NCBI RefSeq assembly: GCF_009497895.1
Contig: NZ_CP033116.1
Coordinates: 4,464,001-4,528,000 of the forward strand
Direction: 5' to 3'
DNA length: 64,000 bases
Origin: Halopseudomonas pelagia
GTDB taxonomy: Bacteria > Pseudomonadota > Gammaproteobacteria > Pseudomonadales > Pseudomonadaceae
Shown: positions 51,825 through 59,443 of the stretch, piece by piece
Position numbering within the stretch: position 1 is the stretch's first letter
Layout of the letters: each line of letters opens with the position of its first letter
Notes under the pieces: model-generated
What the model was told of the DNA's origin: nothing
The model's database searches: none
The model's input: only the letters and a program-made list of their open reading frames with translations
Made by a program: the position numbers and the translations under genes

Positions 51825-52922
51825 TCAGGCGTGAGGCTGCTGCTGGGTGATGCAGTGAATATTGCCGCCACCAAGCAGAATCTCGCGGCCCGGCACCATC
51901 ACTACCCGCCGATCCGGAAACAGCTGCTCCAGCACGGCTTTCGCCGGTTCGTCCTGCGGATCATCAAAGCAGGGCGCGATGATGCCGTCATTGACGATCA
52001 AAAAATTCACATAAGACCCAGCCAGCCGAATCGACGGATCGCGTGGCTGCGAGCCGGCGATCCGATCCACACCGGCACACTCTTCTGCGGTGGCGTAGAG
52101 CGGACCGGGAATCGGCATGCGGTGCACCTTGAGCTCGCGCCCCTGCGCATCACGACTGGCTTCCAGGATTCTCAATGCTTTCTGACAGCGATCGAAATTC
52201 GGATCTTCCGGATCATCGGTCCAGGCCAGCAACACTTCACCGGGCCGCACGAAACAGCAGAAATTGTCGACATGACCATCGGTCTCGTCGTTATACAGAC
52301 CTTCCGGCAGCCAGATGACCTTGTCGATGCCCAGATGATCAGCCAGCTTTATTTCAATCTCCTCGCGCAACAGATGCGGGTTGCGATTGGGGTTAAGCAG
52401 GCACTCCTCGGTAGTAATCAGCGTGCCTTCACCATCTACATGAATAGCACCACCCTCAAGTACAAACCCCTCAGTGCGATAGCGCGGGCTACGCACCAGG
52501 CCCAGGATTTTATCCGCGACCTGATCATCGCGCTGCCACGGCCAGTACAAACCACCGTTAAAGCCGCCCCAGGCATTGAAGGTCCAATCTACGCCGCGCA
52601 AGCCGCCATGGGGGTGGGTGACGAAGGTGGGGCCAGTGTCGCGCACCCAGGCGTCGTCTGTGGTCAACTCGACCACGCGGATACCCGGGTGGCTCAGCTG
52701 TAAATTGGCGTTTTCATATTGGGCGGCAGACACACAGACTGTCACCGGCTCGAAGCTGGCAATTGCCCGCGCTACTTCGGCAAACGCGGCTTGCGCCGGC
52801 TTGGCGCCCAGGCGCCAATTATCCGGACGCTCGGGCCAGACCATCCAGGTCTGGCTGTGCGGCGCCCATTCGGCGGGCATGCTGTAACCATCGGCGCGGG
52901 GCGTACTGTGCAAGGTATACAT
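51825..52922 (-). CDS. aguA: Agmatine deiminase
   Basis: 365 aa guanidino-modifying enzyme that turns agmatine into N-carbamoylputrescine. Conserved [41 protein letters not shown] [29 protein letters not shown] with catalytic His and [13 protein letters not shown] with nucleophile Cys near the C-terminus. Follows aguB by 5 bp. Confidence 0.97.
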
Positions 52923-52927
52923 CGGGA

Positions 52928-53806
52928 TCAGGACTCCAGTGAACCATCCAGGGTTTTAATCGGGCCATACAGGTTTGGCCGACGATCACGGAAGCTGCCC
53001 CAGGCGCTGCGGATATGCTCAAGCTGATCCAGGTCGAACTGCTGCACCAGCACACCCTCTTCGGTTTCGTTCAGTTCCTGGACCTTGGCCCCGAACTGAT
53101 CGGCAATGAATGAGGAGCCATAGAAGGTAATGTCATAGTCGTCCTGCTCCTCGCGACCAATCCGGTTGCTCGCCACCAACGGCATCAGGTTGGCACCGGC
53201 ATGGCCTTGCTGCACACGCTGCCAATGATCGCGCGAGGTAATGTTCGGGTCATGCGGCTCGCTGCCAATCGCGGTCGGATAGAACAGAATCTCCGCACCC
53301 ATCAACGCCATGCTGCGCGCGCATTCCGGGAACCACTGATCCCAGCAGATACCCACGCCGATCTTGGCATACCGGGTCTGCCAGACCTTGAAACCGGTAT
53401 CGCCAGGATTGAAATAATACTTTTCGTGGTACCCGGGGCCATCCGGGATATGGCTCTTGCGATACAAACCCAGATTGCTGCCGTCGGCATCGATGATCAC
53501 AATACTGTTGAAGCGCGCACGCCCGGCCAGTTCGAAAAAGCTGATCGGCAATACCACTTGCAGCTCTTTGGCCAAGGCCTTGAAGTGCGCAATCGCCGGA
53601 TTCTGGTCGATCGTGGTGGCCAGTTGCAGATACTCAGCATTGGGTTTCTGACAGAAGTAGGGGGTTTCAAACAACTCCTGAATCAAAATGATCTGCGCGC
53701 CTTTGCCCGCAGCTTCGCGGACCAGCTTTTCGGCTTTATCAATATTGGCCTGGCGATCCCAAGAACAGCTCATCTGGGTAGCGGCAACAGTTACAAGACG
53801 ACTCAT
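52928..53806 (-). CDS. aguB: N-carbamoylputrescine amidohydrolase
   Basis: 292 aa nitrilase-superfamily enzyme; releases putrescine, CO2 and ammonia. Catalytic triad: Glu in [13 protein letters not shown], Lys in [20 protein letters not shown], Cys in [13 protein letters not shown]. Start at 53806 ([13 protein letters not shown]) with AGGAGAG 5 bp before it; an upstream in-frame ATG has no support. Upstream of aguA in the same unit. Confidence 0.97.
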
Positions 53807-53930
53807 ATCTCTCTCCTGCACAACAAATAATAGGCTGCCGGACAAGCCCGGCGGACAACAAAAAATACTGTCTAAACGGCATCTACTCTGATCACGTAGC
53901 GCCACATTGGCGCGCAGCTCTCACGTTCAA

Positions 53931-55196
53931 TCATCGCGCGTCGCGTATGCCATACCATAACAGGGCCAGCGCCCGAATGGCGGTTTGCAGCGCTGTTCCC
54001 TGCGGCACTGGCCTATGTTTGAGCCGTGCAAACAGATCAAAGCCCTGCTGCTGACCCATCACCGCATCAGCCATGAGCTTACCCGCCAGCCCGGCTAATG
54101 CGACACCCTGGCCAGAATAGCCCTGGGTAAAAAATACCCTATCACCGAGCCGGCCGAAATGCGGGGCCTTACTGGCGGTCATGGCTACCTGGCCGCCCCA
54201 GAGGTATTCGAAATCCGCTTGCGCCAGCGCCGGAAACACTTGCGTCATGCGCTGCCGCATGGTCTGGCGCAAGGCTTCGGGGCGGGCGTCCCGGGCGCTG
54301 GCGCGCCCACCGAACAGCAAGCGGCCATCGGCGCTTAGCCGGTAGTAGTCGATCAGAGTATTCATATCGCATACCGCTGCGCGCGAAGGAATCAGCTGAT
54401 CAGCCAGTTCGCCCAATGGCGCTGTCGCGCCAACATAACTGCCAATCGGCATAAAGCGGCGTTGATGCCAGGGCAGCAACTGGCCTATATAAGCATTGCC
54501 GGCAAGCAGCAGATGATCGGCTCTGACATGCCCCTGATCGGTATGCACGGTCACGCCGGTGCTGTCCTGTTGGTAGCTCAGCACCGGCGAATGTTCAAAC
54601 AGCGTTGCGCCATGCTCTTCAGCCGCCAGTGCCAATCCCAATACATATTTCAGCGGATGCAGGTCGCCGCCGCCCATGTCCATGACGCCGGCCTGATAGT
54701 CGGCATTGAGCAGACCCTGCAAGCTGTCCCGATCATGAAAGGCCAGTTGGTCGTAGCCTAGCTCTTCCAGGCTCGCCTGCCAGGCTTTCAACTCAGGCAC
54801 ATGCCTCGGTTTGTTGGCGACGAGCAAAATGCCCTGTTTGAGTTCGCACTCAATCGCATATTCCGCTACGCGTTTACGCAATAACTCCACGCCGGCGAGG
54901 CTCAACTGCCAGAGTTCTCGGGCCTGTTCGGCGCCGAGTTGTTTTTCCAGTGCAGCCTGATCCGCTGCCAATCCGGGGTTAATCTGCCCGCCGTTGCGCC
55001 CAGAACATCCCCAGCCCACGTGTTCTGCTTCAATCAGCGATACTGTTCTCCCCGCTTTTGCCAGCTCGAGTGCGGCCGATACGCCGGTGAATCCGCCGCC
55101 GACCACACAGACGTCCACGCGGTGTTCGCCCTGCAATGTCGAGCGGGTTTTTTGTGGGGGAATGCTGGAATGGTACCAGGAGTCGTGTTCTGTCAT
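53931..55196 (-). CDS. Gamma-glutamylputrescine oxidase-like FAD oxidoreductase (PuuB/PauB type)
   Basis: 421 aa DAO-fold flavoenzyme. FAD site VCVVGGGFTGVSAALELAKAG at about 29; GWGCSGRNGGQINPG is the PuuB/PauB group pattern; DMNTLIDYYRLSADGRLLFGG and GQGVALAGLAGKLMAD follow. It should oxidise gamma-glutamyl-putrescine made by SpuI/SpuB. Located between spuI and aguB, all leftward. A 450-bp spacer with two hairpin elements separates it from spuI. Confidence 0.9.
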   Translation of the reverse strand: MTEHDSWYHSSIPPQKTRSTLQGEHRVDVCVVGGGFTGVSAALELAKAGRTVSLIEAEHVGWGCSGRNGGQINPGLAADQAALEKQLGAEQARELWQLSLAGVELLRKRVAEYAIECELKQGILLVANKPRHVPELKAWQASLEELGYDQLAFHDRDSLQGLLNADYQAGVMDMGGGDLHPLKYVLGLALAAEEHGATLFEHSPVLSYQQDSTGVTVHTDQGHVRADHLLLAGNAYIGQLLPWHQRRFMPIGSYVGATAPLGELADQLIPSRAAVCDMNTLIDYYRLSADGRLLFGGRASARDARPEALRQTMRQRMTQVFPALAQADFEYLWGGQVAMTASKAPHFGRLGDRVFFTQGYSGQGVALAGLAGKLMADAVMGQQQGFDLFARLKHRPVPQGTALQTAIRALALLWYGIRDAR

Positions 55197-55245
55197 TTTC
55201 TACACCGTGCCTTTTTGATTCTGCTTCGGCGTGCAGCCGCGCCAC

Positions 55246-55340
55246 TTCCGTTGGCCCTGCCTGGACACGCTCGGCGCCCTCCCTGGGCGCTCGGCATCGC
55301 ACATCCCTGTGCTCTGACGGTCCAGGCAGGGCCACCGGAA
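55246..55340. repeat. Hairpin element A: shared core in its own stem
   Basis: Outer arms 55246-55265 and 55321-55340 pair at 19 of 20 positions (ttggccctgcctgga / tccaggcagggcc). The loop holds a 57-nt core (55265-55321) that recurs in inverted orientation at 55444-55500. The core itself has two small hairpins: gcgccc-tccct-gggcgc and gcaca-tccc-tgtgc. No open frame or known repeat family is recognised. Confidence 0.85.
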
Positions 55341-55415
55341 GCGTCGCACCTAAATCACTGTGCATGCTGAAAAAATCACCAACCCAGGTTTTCGAGCTGC
55401 CACACCTACGCATAT

Positions 55416-55528
55416 GGTCTTGGCGTCGGCTGCCCTATGCGTGACCGTCAGAGCACATGGATGTGCGATGCCGAGCGCCCAGGGAGGGCAGCGAGCGTGT
55501 CGCGCATAGGGCAGCCGACGCCAAGACC
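55416..55528. repeat. Hairpin element B: same core, different stem, opposite orientation
   Basis: Outer arms 55416-55441 and 55503-55528 are perfectly complementary over 26 bp (ggtcttggcgtcggctgccc...). This stem has no resemblance to the stem of element A. The enclosed core (55444-55500) is 54 of 57 identical to the reverse complement of element A's core. One of the three changes lies in the inner hairpin, which reads gcacat-cc-atgtgc here, so the stem is kept. Confidence 0.88.
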
Positions 55529-55542
55529 CAGCACGGAGCCAG

Positions 55543-55607
55543 ACCAAAACAAAAACAAACACCAAAACCAAATCAAGACCGACCAACAACCCCCACACAA
55601 CAAAATC
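55543..55607. other. Strand-biased A/C-rich tract
   Basis: About 65 bp made almost only of A and C on the plus strand (G/T-rich on the strand that would be transcribed with spuI), with runs such as aaaacaaaaacaaacacc and aacaaccccc. It lies between element B and the end of spuI. Confidence 0.6.
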
Positions 55608-55624
55608 CCGCCACAAGGACGGGA
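55601..55624 (-). terminator. Weak terminator after spuI
   Basis: On the minus strand TCCCG (55620-55624) and CGGGA (55606-55610) form a 5-bp stem with a 9-nt loop, followed by TTTTGTTG. It starts 22 bp after the spuI stop. The short stem makes termination partial at best. Confidence 0.4.
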
Positions 55625-55645
55625 CTATGTATTACAGAGCCAAGG

Positions 55646-57055
55646 TCAGACAGTATGCAAATACCACATATATTCCAGATCCGAGATAGTCCGCTCGAAC
55701 TCCTCCTGCTCGCTCTCCTTGCACAGCACAAACACGTCCAGATACTCCTCGCCAATGTACTCTTTCATGACGGCAGAGTTTTCCAGCGCACGCAGTGCAT
55801 CACGCAGGTTGGTAGGCAGGGACGCCTCGTGCTGATCGTAGGCGTTGCCCTCGGTCATCTCCGGCGGCTCGATCTTGTTGCTGATGCCGTAGTGAATTGC
55901 CGAAAGCAACGCAGCCATCAACAGGTACGGGTTGGCATCGGCGCCAGCCAAGCGATGCTCGATACGCATCGATTCCGGATCACCGCCTGGCACGCGAACG
56001 GCCACAGTGCGGTTATCAATGCCCCAGGTCGGCGCGCAGGGCACAAAGAAGCTCGGGCTGAAACGACGGTAAGAGTTCACGTTCGGGCAGAGAAAGGCCA
56101 TATATTCCGGCAACGTCTGCAACAGACCGCCAATCGCCCAACGCAGCGTATCGCTTAAAGTACCGTCGGCATTCGGCGCAAAAACGTTAACACCCAGCTC
56201 GTCGACCAGACTGATATGCACGTGCATGCCATTGCCGGCCTGATCGTAATAAGGCTTGGCCATGAAGGTGGTGTCCATTTCATGGTCGTAGGCGACGTTC
56301 TTGATCACGCGCTTGAGTAATACGTTGTGATCACAGGCAACCACCGGATCGTCCACGTGGTGCAGGTTGACCTCGAACTGACCGGGTGCTGATTCCGCTA
56401 CAATGGCGTCTGCGGGGATGTCCTGCTCGTGGGCAGCCTCGATGACGTCCTGGAGGAATTCAGCGTACTCATCCAGGTCATCCATGGAATAGACCTGAAC
56501 GGAGTTCGGACGCTTGCCAGACATTGGCGAGCGTGGTGGTTGCGGGCGACCAGTGATGTTCTCCTGATCGATCAGGTAAAACTCCAATTCGAAAGCCGAG
56601 ACCGGCGTCAGCCCCAACTCGCTAAAGCGTTTAACGATACGTTGCAGTACATAACGCGGATCGGCAAAAAATGGCGTTTTGCGGTCCAGTTCGTACATGG
56701 TCATTAATAGCTGACCTGTTGGACGCTTCTGCCAAGGTTCGACGCACAGAGTACCGGGGATGGGCAGGCAGACCCGGTCCGCGTCGCCGATTTCCAGACC
56801 CAGACCGGTTTCTTCCACCGTGGTGCCCTGGATATTCAAGGCGAAGATGGAGGCCGGGAGAGCAATACCTTTTTCGTAGGCTTTCAAAAGGGCCGAACGG
56901 TCGATACGCTTGCCACGTACGATGCCGTTCATATCTGCAATCAGCAGATCAATGAAGTGGATTTCCGGATGCTCGGCCAGAAAGGCCTCCGCTTCCTGGA
57001 CACTGACGGGTTCAGCGATGGCTGCCGCAGTATCCGCTCCGGTTAGGGATGGCAT
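55646..57055 (-). CDS. spuI: Gamma-glutamylpolyamine synthetase (glutamine synthetase family)
   Basis: 469 aa GS-family ligase that attaches glutamate to putrescine or related amines. N-terminal region LIADMNGIVRGKRIDR; ATP/Mg region FELEFYLIDQ; QFEVNLHHVDDPV; NGMHVHISLVDE; FLCPNVNSYRRFSP; RIEHRLAGADANPYLLMAA. Adenylylation Tyr of true GlnA is not in context. Divergent from spuABCDEF, as in P. aeruginosa. AGGTGA precedes the start. Confidence 0.93.
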   Translation of the reverse strand: MPSLTGADTAAAIAEPVSVQEAEAFLAEHPEIHFIDLLIADMNGIVRGKRIDRSALLKAYEKGIALPASIFALNIQGTTVEETGLGLEIGDADRVCLPIPGTLCVEPWQKRPTGQLLMTMYELDRKTPFFADPRYVLQRIVKRFSELGLTPVSAFELEFYLIDQENITGRPQPPRSPMSGKRPNSVQVYSMDDLDEYAEFLQDVIEAAHEQDIPADAIVAESAPGQFEVNLHHVDDPVVACDHNVLLKRVIKNVAYDHEMDTTFMAKPYYDQAGNGMHVHISLVDELGVNVFAPNADGTLSDTLRWAIGGLLQTLPEYMAFLCPNVNSYRRFSPSFFVPCAPTWGIDNRTVAVRVPGGDPESMRIEHRLAGADANPYLLMAALLSAIHYGISNKIEPPEMTEGNAYDQHEASLPTNLRDALRALENSAVMKEYIGEEYLDVFVLCKESEQEEFERTISDLEYMWYLHTV

Positions 57056-57327
57056 GAGATGTCACCTGTTGTTTGTAAAATATATCAATCACGTTGGCAC
57101 TAGGAACAGAGTAAATCCGAAAGGCCATGATGAGTCAATAGAATCAAGATTGCACAAATGCAGTGCAGCGCGCACCAAATAGGGCCGTAGAGCGGGCTTA
57201 GAGGCATTTCCAGCAGCCCTATCAGCCTGGCGATTTTGGCTTTTGTGTAAAGTATTTTTTGTTGCTATTGTATAAAAAATTGAACAACATCGAATTCATG
57301 TACGTTATTCACTACAGGCTTTGACTC
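57056..57327. promoter_or_regulatory. Divergent spuI/spuA control region
   Basis: AT-rich 272 bp between two start codons. Near spuA, tgttg (57260-57264) and caaca (57285-57289) form a widely spaced symmetric pair around tattgtataaaaaattg, a possible regulator site overlapping a TATAAA at 57271. The regulator cannot be named from the sequence. Confidence 0.4.
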
Positions 57328-58089
57328 ATGTCCGTCGTCCGAAAGCCCCTGATTGGCATTACCTGCTGCACCGATCAGTTGGGTCTGCACCCTTTCCATA
57401 TAGTAGGTGAAAAATACATCCTTGGCGTCGTCGATGGCGCAGGGGGTTTGCCGCTGCTGATTCCCGCCCTGGGTGAGCAGATTGGCTTCGAGCAGTTGCT
57501 TGATACCCTCGACGGCATCATGTTCACCGGCTCGCCGTCGAATGTGGAGCCGCATCATTATAATGGCCAACCCAGCGCCGAAGGCACCCGTCACGACGCC
57601 AAGCGCGACGCCACCACCCTGCCTTTGATTAAAGCCGCGATAGACCGGGGCGTCCCGGTGCTGTGCATTTGTCGTGGCTTCCAGGAAATGAATGTCGCCT
57701 TTGGCGGCACCCTGCACCAGCGTCTGTATGAAGTGGGCGGCTTTATCGAACACCGCGAAAACAAGGAGCATCCTGTCGAGCAACAATATGGCCTGTCGCA
57801 TGAAGTCCATATTGAGCCAGGGGGTCTACTCTATGAACTGTCAGGCCGCAACTCGGCACAGGTCAATTCCCTGCACACCCAGGGCGTCGACCAGTTGGCA
57901 CCCGGCTTGCGGCCTGAAGCAACAGCTCCAGATGGGTTGGTCGAGGCATTCTCGGTCAGCCAGGCAAGCAATTTCGCGCTGGGCGTGCAATGGCATCCGG
58001 AATGGAAGGTAAAGGAAAACGCCTTCTATCTGTCGATCTTCAAGGCGTTTGGTGACGCCTGCCGGGCACGTTCAAACAGGCATTCCTGA
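57328..58089 (+). CDS. spuA: Gamma-glutamyl-GABA hydrolase, class I glutaminase-like
   Basis: 253 aa PuuD/SpuA family. Catalytic Cys in VLCICRGFQEMNVAFGG, His and Glu in VQWHPEWKV; GIMFTGSPSNVEPHHYN is typical. It should free GABA or similar products from gamma-glutamyl conjugates. First gene of spuABCDEF; spuB starts 7 bp after its stop. Confidence 0.94.
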   Translation: MSVVRKPLIGITCCTDQLGLHPFHIVGEKYILGVVDGAGGLPLLIPALGEQIGFEQLLDTLDGIMFTGSPSNVEPHHYNGQPSAEGTRHDAKRDATTLPLIKAAIDRGVPVLCICRGFQEMNVAFGGTLHQRLYEVGGFIEHRENKEHPVEQQYGLSHEVHIEPGGLLYELSGRNSAQVNSLHTQGVDQLAPGLRPEATAPDGLVEAFSVSQASNFALGVQWHPEWKVKENAFYLSIFKAFGDACRARSNRHS

Positions 58090-58096
58090 GGGATTT

Positions 58097-59443
58097 ATGA
58101 ACAAGATTGAAGCGTGGCTTAAAGAGAACAAGATTACCGAAGTAGAATGCATGGTCAGCGATCTGACCGGTATCGCCCGGGGCAAAATCGCCCCCACCAT
58201 GAAATTTATATCCGAGAAGGGCATGCGTCTGCCCGAAAGTATTCTGCTGCAATCGGTGACCGGCGATTACGTCGAAGACGACATCTATTACGACCTGCTC
58301 GACCCGGCCGATATCGACATGATCTGTAAGCCGGATGACAGCGCTGTCTATCTGGTGCCATGGGCTTTGGAGCCGACGGCGCAGATCATTCATGACTGCT
58401 ACGACAAGGCCGGCGAGCCAATTGAAATGTCGCCACGCAACATTCTCAAAAAGATCCTCAAGATGTATGCCGACAAGGGCTGGCAGCCCCTGGTTGCGCC
58501 TGAGATGGAATTTTATCTGACCAAGCGCAATGAAGATCCAGATCTGCCGCTGCAACCACCGGTGGGCCGGTCGGGCCGCCAGGAGACCGGCCGCCAGTCG
58601 TTCTCGATCGATGCCGCCAACGAATTTGATCCGCTGTTTGAAGATATGTACGACTGGTGCGAGGCGCAGGGCCTGGATCTGGATACGCTGATCCACGAAG
58701 AGGGCACCGCGCAGATGGAAATCAACTTCCGTCACGGCGACCCGCTGCATTTGGCTGACCAGATTCTGGTGTTCAAGCGCACCATGCGCGAGGCCGCGCT
58801 CAAGCACGATATGACCGCGACCTTTATGGCCAAGCCGATCACCAACGAGCCTGGCAGCGCCATGCACTTGCACCAGAGCATCGTCGATCGCAAGACCGGG
58901 CAGAACATATTCTCCAATGAAGATGGGAGCATGAGCGAGCTGTTCCTGCATCATATCGGCGGCTTGCAGCGTTACATCCCTGAGGTGCTGCCGCTGTTCG
59001 CGCCAAACGTGAACTCCTTCCGCCGCTTCCTGCCGGACACTTCCGCGCCAGTAAACGTCGAATGGGGCGAAGAGAACCGCACCGCCGGCTTGCGTGTGCC
59101 CGACTCTACGCCGCAGAACCGCCGTGTGGAAAACCGCCTGCCCGGCGCCGATGCCAACCCTTACATCGCCATTGCCGCGAGTTTGCTCTGCGGCTATCTG
59201 GGCATGGTCGGCAGAATGGAGCCATCGGCACCCGTCAAGGGTCGTGCCTATGAGCGCCGCAACCTGCGTCTGCCGCTGACCCTCGAATCGGCGCTGGAGC
59301 GTATGGAGCAATGTGCTGACGTGGAAGCGGTACTCGGCAGCAAGTTCTGCCGTGGCTACGTCGCCGTCAAACGCGTTGAGCACGAGAATTACAAGCGCGT
59401 GATCAGCTCCTGGGAGCGCGAGTTCCTGCTGCTAAGCGTCTGA
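58097..59443 (+). CDS. spuB: Gamma-glutamylpolyamine synthetase (glutamine synthetase family)
   Basis: 448 aa paralogue of SpuI. VECMVSDLTGIARGKIAPTM near the N-terminus; VAPEMEFYLTKR; AQMEINFRHGDPL; GSAMHLHQSIVD; FAPNVNSFRRFLPD; RVENRLPGADANPYIAIAAS. GAGGG precedes the ATG at 58097 (MNKIEAWLKENK). Different substrate range from SpuI (for instance spermidine against putrescine) is possible but cannot be read here. Confidence 0.93.
   Translation: MNKIEAWLKENKITEVECMVSDLTGIARGKIAPTMKFISEKGMRLPESILLQSVTGDYVEDDIYYDLLDPADIDMICKPDDSAVYLVPWALEPTAQIIHDCYDKAGEPIEMSPRNILKKILKMYADKGWQPLVAPEMEFYLTKRNEDPDLPLQPPVGRSGRQETGRQSFSIDAANEFDPLFEDMYDWCEAQGLDLDTLIHEEGTAQMEINFRHGDPLHLADQILVFKRTMREAALKHDMTATFMAKPITNEPGSAMHLHQSIVDRKTGQNIFSNEDGSMSELFLHHIGGLQRYIPEVLPLFAPNVNSFRRFLPDTSAPVNVEWGEENRTAGLRVPDSTPQNRRVENRLPGADANPYIAIAASLLCGYLGMVGRMEPSAPVKGRAYERRNLRLPLTLESALERMEQCADVEAVLGSKFCRGYVAVKRVEHENYKRVISSWEREFLLLSV

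Follow-up and report, generated by a model that had tools for sequence, protein, structure and literature searches.

Two facing hairpins between a glutamine-synthetase-family gene and an FAD-dependent oxidoreductase gene of Halopseudomonas pelagia belong to a repeat that is scattered through many gammaproteobacterial genomes, of which they form one head-to-head pair. In each unit, a stem that acts as a sequence-free scaffold, changing freely while still pairing, closes a conserved core whose two loops resemble, by their sequence, sites at which the global regulator CsrA/RsmA docks. We consider it moderately probable that the repeat is a TwoAYGGAY-type element, dispersed and probably mobile, that often occurs in divergent pairs and the RNA of which would clamp a CsrA dimer.

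The divergent pair and its surroundings

The pair was analysed in a stretch of 64,000 nucleotides (the window), to which the positions below refer; R1 is the covariance model of the family, and G000 is the genome that holds the window.

53931..55196, minus strand: downstream gene, FAD-dependent oxidoreductase (DAO, PF01266; Pfam)
55239..55347, minus strand (RNA/GGA orientation): element A (R1 hit G000:C1:4519239-4519347:-, 89.3 bits; fold z −8.1)
55239..55266, minus strand: 3′ arm of the element A stem, locus-specific, with the closing GTC (inverted repeat I3)
55264..55322, minus strand: core of element A, 59 nt (inverted repeat I1, 95% identity to the inverted core B)
55274..55290, minus strand: second inner hairpin of core A, CAGGGAGG, GGA at 55280-55282 (fold, family alignment, sequence)
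55299..55312, minus strand: inner hairpin of core A, loop CAGGGAUG, GGA at 55304-55306 (fold, family alignment, sequence)
55320..55347, minus strand: 5′ arm of the element A stem in RNA orientation, locus-specific, with the closing GAC (inverted repeat I3)
55348..55415, no strand: spacer of 68 nt separating the facing 5′ ends of A and B (sequence)
55416..55528, plus strand (RNA/GGA orientation): element B (R1 hit G000:C1:4519418-4519526:+, 97.4 bits; fold z −9.6)
55416..55445, plus strand: 5′ arm of the element B stem, locus-specific, with the closing GAC (inverted repeat I2, 97%)
55443..55501, plus strand: core of element B, 59 nt (inverted repeat I1)
55453..55466, plus strand: inner hairpin of core B, loop CAUGGAUG, GGA at 55459-55461 (fold, sequence)
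55475..55492 (ends approximate), plus strand: second inner hairpin of core B, CAGGGAGG, GGA at 55483-55485 (fold, sequence)
55499..55528, plus strand: 3′ arm of the element B stem, locus-specific, with the closing GTC (inverted repeat I2)
55602..55625, minus strand: terminator-like hairpin of the glutamine-synthetase-family gene (sequence, by eye)
55646..57055, minus strand: upstream gene, glutamine-synthetase-family protein (PF00120; Pfam)

Elements A and B are hairpins of about 110 nt, each with its own stem of about 27 bp. In the GGA orientation, each is folded as an outer stem and a junction that carries two small hairpins. The folding energies are −80.4 kcal/mol for A on the minus strand (z −8.1) and −86.0 kcal/mol for B on the plus strand (z −9.6), and in neither case was any of 200 dinucleotide shuffles as good. 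R1 matches element B over 55418-55526, and its E-values are 1.9e-18 for A and 1.6e-20 for B, both being among the sequences from which R1 was built. A sequence-only reading of this DNA had recognised inverted shared cores, a fully paired stem of 26 bp in B and two inner hairpins, one of which stays paired despite a base change, and all of this holds: the 59-nt arms 55264-55322 and 55443-55501 are 95% complementary, stem B has 27 positions, of which 26 are Watson-Crick pairs and the 27th is U.G, and both the paired inner hairpins and compensatory change are supported. The stem of 19 out of 20 bp that it gave to A does exist but is longer than claimed, with 24 Watson-Crick pairs over 29 positions (89% over 28 nt if the closing GAC/GTC is counted).

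The pair sits just beyond the terminator-like hairpin of the glutamine-synthetase-family gene, and similar hairpins are seen by eye at many orthologous sites without the pair. The outer edge of element A is 42 nt from the ATG of the oxidoreductase gene, on its upstream side, and copy A presumably lies in the leader of this gene. The surroundings look like a polyamine/agmatine cluster: within 51825-59443, agmatine deiminase and N-carbamoylputrescine amidase score above their NCBIfam cut-offs, and the oxidoreductase, two glutamine-synthetase-family genes and a gamma-glutamyl-GABA hydrolase-like gene score below theirs. The best NCBIfam family for the upstream gene is gamma-glutamylputrescine synthetase, below cut-off, and the oxidoreductase is below the cut-off of the best 25 of 48 NCBIfam families. 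The intergenic gap with the pair measures 452 bp in G000, 403 bp in G012 and 484 bp in G001 vs. 2-223 bp without the pair in 15 other sequences bearing both genes; no stem arm was seen by eye in the pair-less sites of this one locus.

The 22 units inspected in the own genome form nine pairs and 13 singles. A rough codon-based gene caller places all of them outside genes; 14 have same-strand, six convergent and one divergent neighbours, and one is undetermined. Six of the nine single copies between same-strand genes are antisense. When copies lie less than 400 nt apart, the arrangement is divergent in 19 of 21 cases (four genomes), and the two convergent cases are one orthologous pair. Many copies are located beyond terminator-like hairpins, as judged by eye. 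A profile over the family, pair spacer included, revealed no strong fixed sigma-70 −10 site upstream of the stem, the signal rising just slightly some 36 nt ahead of the core; the underlying set probably counts most elements twice, as the search pattern allowed two starts, and for the same reason the enrichment of GCAC just outside the stem is to be read qualitatively. The absence of a strong promoter of their own, together with the six antisense singles, means that it is not evident that the GGA strand is transcribed. At one locus (L084), a copy is found just before the start codon of an ORF beginning MYAVIGA, residues that may point to ribosomal protein L21.

Copy number, spread and relation to TwoAYGGAY

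With copy A as a query, BLAST found 10 places in the 4.55-Mb own genome at E<=1e-3, copy A included, and each of them carries its own stem. When a collection of 84,980 species genomes was searched with a pattern of the core, 48 stretches matched, including ones from Halopseudomonas, Pseudomonas, Thioalkalivibrio, Halieaceae, Mangrovimicrobium and Aquisalimonas; viral contigs gave no exact match. The 321-bp pair had no match in the plasmid or phage collections, nor had region 54000-58000 in the plasmid collection.

R1 was built from 51 of 67 distinct copies, leaving out those with fewer than 18 pairs, unequal arms or sequence ends and four named loci; the pattern used to collect this first alignment itself required GGA. 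R1 finds approximately 31 copies in the own genome and, at E<=0.001, 2-71 matches in 29 of 37 genus genomes (own included) and none in the other eight, these counts being approximate as the best 105-150 first-look candidates were scored per genome. Weak hits could come from hairpins unrelated to the family, those in G006 (two, best E 3e-5) being an example. At E<=1e-6, R1 was positive in 57 of 369 sampled gammaproteobacterial genomes (best 10 candidates scored per genome) and in 17 of 299 genomes of the phylum (best 13), all 17 belonging to Gammaproteobacteria. We inspected 29 of the class-level loci, holding 35 R1 matches. A tandem array of six same-strand matches, spaced by roughly 228 bp, was observed at G630:C1:94416-95646.

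The sequence-only reading knew of no described family with this layout, a point that is not supported, since the elements are related to TwoAYGGAY (Rfam RF01731). This family is described as having two matches to the CsrA motif within a poorly conserved external stem, with CsrA binding proposed (PMC4333381, in the part available). It is reported from human gut, Gammaproteobacteria and Clostridiales and considered probably an RNA and probably not cis-regulatory (PMC2864571, in the part available); the Rfam label is Cis-reg. The relation comes from the relatives of the window copies. RF01731 scores above its gathering cut-off of 43 bits at six places in three of the 37 genus genomes, five of which coincide with listed R1 places, and at none in 14 control genomes. 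In a six-locus scan in E-value mode, it reaches 42.0 bits at a Mangrovimicrobium copy and 34 bits at a Halieaceae copy, both below the cut-off, and has no match at the copies in the four other loci. Of 20 distant loci, two match it in E-value mode only (51.5 and 45.2 bits), and the scan at gathering thresholds returned only tRNAs both in these 20 loci and in the window. The window copies themselves have no match at E<=10 and the own genome none at E<=0.01, so that they fall outside strict membership as set by the gathering cut-off. They do show two hairpins with ANGGAY-type terminal loops inside an external stem, and a relative matches RF01731 residue by residue. Judged by sequence and predicted fold, the family is thus a TwoAYGGAY-type variant rather than a strict member. 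The Rfam hits to microRNA and Ysr224 seem to reflect generic hairpin similarity. The family itself, its copy number, its paired layout and its presence or absence between relatives are all direct observations, and the earlier view of a modular, structured, possibly mobile element is strengthened, mobility being probable.

Constraint on the core, the stem and the folding strand

A script that parsed the 67 distinct copies counted 18 or more Watson-Crick pairs in 61 of them, most stems being 25-29 bp long; three of the remaining six are cut by sequence ends, two are mis-parsed and one has 16 pairs. Arms given random partners form 4.9 pairs on average, and the 103 of 2000 that reach 18 may reflect related stems. 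In the 51-sequence alignment, the cells of the outer helix pair in 97.5%, 26 of the 28 outer pairs have changes on both sides, and the structure as a whole pairs in 95.7% vs. 33-41% in slid controls. Four of five alignment measures beat all 500 shuffles; the fifth, the number of pairs changed on both sides, is unremarkable (31 vs. 29.1 shuffled; 40 of 500 shuffles).

Orthologous loci, matched by hand from flanking DNA, allowed the stem and the core to be compared with their surroundings (DNA 5-150 nt outside the element); a few matches, that of the window locus included, rest mainly on one flank because of contig ends. Against G023 (22 loci), the differences amount to 159/1100 in the arms (14.5%), 41/1280 in the core (3.2%) and 887/6009 in the near flank (14.8%). 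The corresponding values are 251/650, 108/748 and 962/3208 against G031 (13 loci) and 95/600, 33/745 and 612/3238 against G011 (12 loci), so that the core is two to five times less variable than its surroundings. Where both sides of a stem pair have changed, it remains Watson-Crick in 45 of 52 cases (G023), 97 of 111 (G031) and 26 of 30 (G011). The rate at which the stem drifts is therefore about that of the neighbouring DNA, with changes coming in matched pairs, and the core hardly changes, thus indicating that the core is constrained and that the stem must pair. Since the sequence of the stem is free and only its pairing is required, the copies of one genome can have the core in common and not the stem. 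The 'unrelated' stems of the sequence-only reading hold up pairwise, stems differing among copies with a 5′ arm identity of 0.50 within pairs and 0.47 between pairs, but not for the family as a whole: there is a weak positional consensus (C-G in 36/51 at stem column 17 and in 40/51 at column 18), and the changes at orthologous loci, 45 of the 52 double-sided ones leading from Watson-Crick to Watson-Crick, are compensatory. Several copies of one genome, FK_Sedi_B_Bin.69, have similar stems.

The cores are more similar within a pair than between pairs (0.81 vs. 0.73; nine pairs, permutation p 0.006). At one locus, both members of a pair differ together between species, which suggests conversion between the two cores that face each other.

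Several individual copies deserve mention. One is identical over the match of about 110 nt in three species (L131, L254, L115), with flanks 84-92% identical. At orthologous loci L138 (G000:C1:2391779-2391885) and L266 (G023:C1:917692-917798), the core has opposite orientations and the stem arms look homologous by eye, as if the core had flipped between them. A repeat of about 50 nt with two hairpins of its own interrupts one of the two GGA loops, in either orientation, at L145, L146 and L147 of the own genome, L235 (G011), L255 (G031) and L265 (G023); the orthologous copy L270 is without it.

The mismatches left in the stems indicate which strand folds. Read in the GGA orientation, stem cells are G.U in 78 and A.C in 11 cases of the 51-sequence alignment, and 233 vs. 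48 over 168 distinct sequences, GU being in the majority in 110, AC in nine, with 49 ties. Related copies are not independent in this count, and the one-sided differences between orthologs, which come closer to a count of events, give 56 GU, 7 AC and 37 other mismatches (45 of 47 ortholog pairs, two L124+ pairs being left out for an indel). This excess of GU over AC means that folding is selected on one strand, the GGA strand. The folded molecule is RNA or single-stranded DNA, and the excess fits both. The pairing constraint, the one-strand folding and the conservation of GGA are all observed directly.

The GGA loops, their possible role and known systems

Both loops of the window units read CANGGANG, which equals the published RsmE site; the first hairpin has CAGGGAUG in A and CAUGGAUG in B, and the second has CAGGGAGG. 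Set against AYGGAY, these loops are AGGGAU (A), AUGGAU (B) and AGGGAG (both), and the strict AYGGAY is not kept. The RsmE consensus is given as A/U-CANGGANG-U/A (PMC6849547, in the part available), and CsrA has a SELEX consensus of RUACARGGAUGU and dimer bridging distances of 10-63 nt with an optimum above 18 nt (PMC7652899, in the part available). In both window copies, the two CANGGANG sites lie in hairpin loops within this range. From 132 distinct R1 matches, we removed four opposite-strand readings and one that was cut off; at least two GGA occur in the core of 122 of the 127 left. Setting aside nine copies with an insertion in one loop leaves 118, of which 115 have at least two GGA, 95 two CANGGANG and 23 one, for instance where CC replaces CA in a loop. 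The higher score of the first alignment (two CANGGANG in 51 of 51) is partly due to the collecting pattern, which demanded GGA. Spacing is uniform: among the 87 insertion-free copies that have two GGA and no more, the starts of the GGA are 22-25 nt apart in 86. Of the 132 matches, 83 contain ACANGGAYGT, vs. 0.07 expected from mononucleotide shuffles, and three contain the exact SELEX 12-mer.

According to the reading we favour, A and B would be one divergent (5′-end-to-5′-end) pair of a dispersed, non-autonomous TwoAYGGAY-type element, the unit being a core of 59 nt that is closed by a stem of about 27 bp and holds two small hairpins with CANGGANG in their loops. Upon transcription of the GGA strand, the stem would isolate each unit, its partner's complementary core included, and would present the two loops, 22-25 nt apart, to both RNA sites of one CsrA/RsmA dimer. 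The copies may then titrate CsrA or tune the transcript in which each of them lies. Here, we infer transcription, CsrA binding, an effect, mobility and the means of mobility. This reading is weakened by the lack of an RF01731 match for the window copies, by the 23 of 118 copies with one CANGGANG and by the opposite core orientation at one orthologous locus. The distribution of csrA, which the element does not track (found in 52 of 57 element-positive vs. 261 of 312 other genomes), is uninformative and speaks at most weakly against it. No csrA was found in five element-positive genomes, G102, G194, G217, G289 and G435, which are 75, 67, 95, 98 and 85% complete, respectively.

More tentatively, the repeat could be a mobile, distributed CsrA sponge that has spread over the chromosomes of Gammaproteobacteria, with tens of units per genome, divergent pairs and distinct stems. 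The divergent arrangement would yield one GGA unit from transcription of either side, and the distinct stems would stop the two cores of a pair, complementary as they are, from annealing to each other. If so, copy number would set the availability of CsrA. Should RsmA be bound, every description of Csr/Rsm control in these bacteria would need to include tens of dispersed sites, and titration of a regulator would have a new source in repeats. A little-studied Rfam family thereby turns into a genome-scale repeat that follows a clear evolutionary rule, with the core constrained and the stem free but paired, and that has a testable candidate ligand.

The strongest alternative, which we regard as rather unlikely, is that the folded unit is single-stranded DNA, i.e., a REP/BIME-like or attC-like mobile element the GGA strand of which is moved by a transposase, the GGA loops being transposase binding marks and their resemblance to CsrA sites a coincidence. 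RAYT proteins are held to mobilise REPs, and RAYT (PF01797) was the transposase covered by our check. A requirement for RAYT was rejected, as the presence of the element does not follow the gene. Copy numbers of 0-71 within one genus, presence or absence at one site (the window locus), one-strand folding, the lack of units inside called genes and of any tracking of csrA all agree with a DNA element, as do the inverted doublets, known for REPs (PMC2817692, in the part available). Against it, RAYT was not found in G004, G015 and G023, which have 14, 26 and 34 copies, and was found in six of eight copy-free genomes of the genus; moreover, the usual loop consensus is that of a CsrA/RsmE site.

It is improbable that the units are transcript-end devices, long hairpins that block exonucleases or read-through with no specific ligand for the loops. 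Such a function would suit the positions of the copies, 14 of 21 between same-strand genes with six convergent and one divergent, many of them beyond terminator-like hairpins by eye, but would leave unexplained why GGA is conserved in both loops and why the core evolves two to five times more slowly than nearby DNA. That stems were made at insertion, by inverted target duplication or from a pre-existing hairpin, and are unrelated by origin is a reading already disfavoured and very improbable: the arms of different copies are dissimilar (0.50 within and 0.47 between pairs), but pair-less sites contain no arm (by eye, one locus), a weak stem consensus is shared, several FK_Sedi_B_Bin.69 copies have similar stems, and orthologous stems turn over by paired substitution.

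The favoured reading, that of an RNA clamping a CsrA dimer, brings the window units close to the CsrB/RsmX/Y/Z sRNAs, which, in the descriptions available to us, likewise have GGA in hairpin loops at a spacing fit for a CsrA dimer. Such CsrA-sequestering sRNAs are single-locus, in contrast to the tens of dispersed short units of our family, which are without a clear promoter of their own. Integron attC sites also combine a folded strand with a variable, pairing part; they have conserved R′/R″ ends and stand in an array with an integrase, whereas the conserved part of our family is, by inspection of the layout, central and not terminal. REPs are extragenic, dispersed and arranged in inverted doublets, with palindromic units that undergo complementary change (PMC2817692, in the part available), and our family shares all these properties, differing in the lack of a link to RAYT, in the long copy-specific stem and in the GGA loops. 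In the open literature searched, we recognised no description of dispersed CsrA-motif or variable-stem repeats. The closest likeness is to TwoAYGGAY, with its two ANGGAY loops in a poorly conserved external stem and its proposed binding of CsrA. To the available descriptions of that family, the repeat studied here adds a high dispersed copy number, divergent pairing and the drift of a stem that is free in sequence but remains paired.
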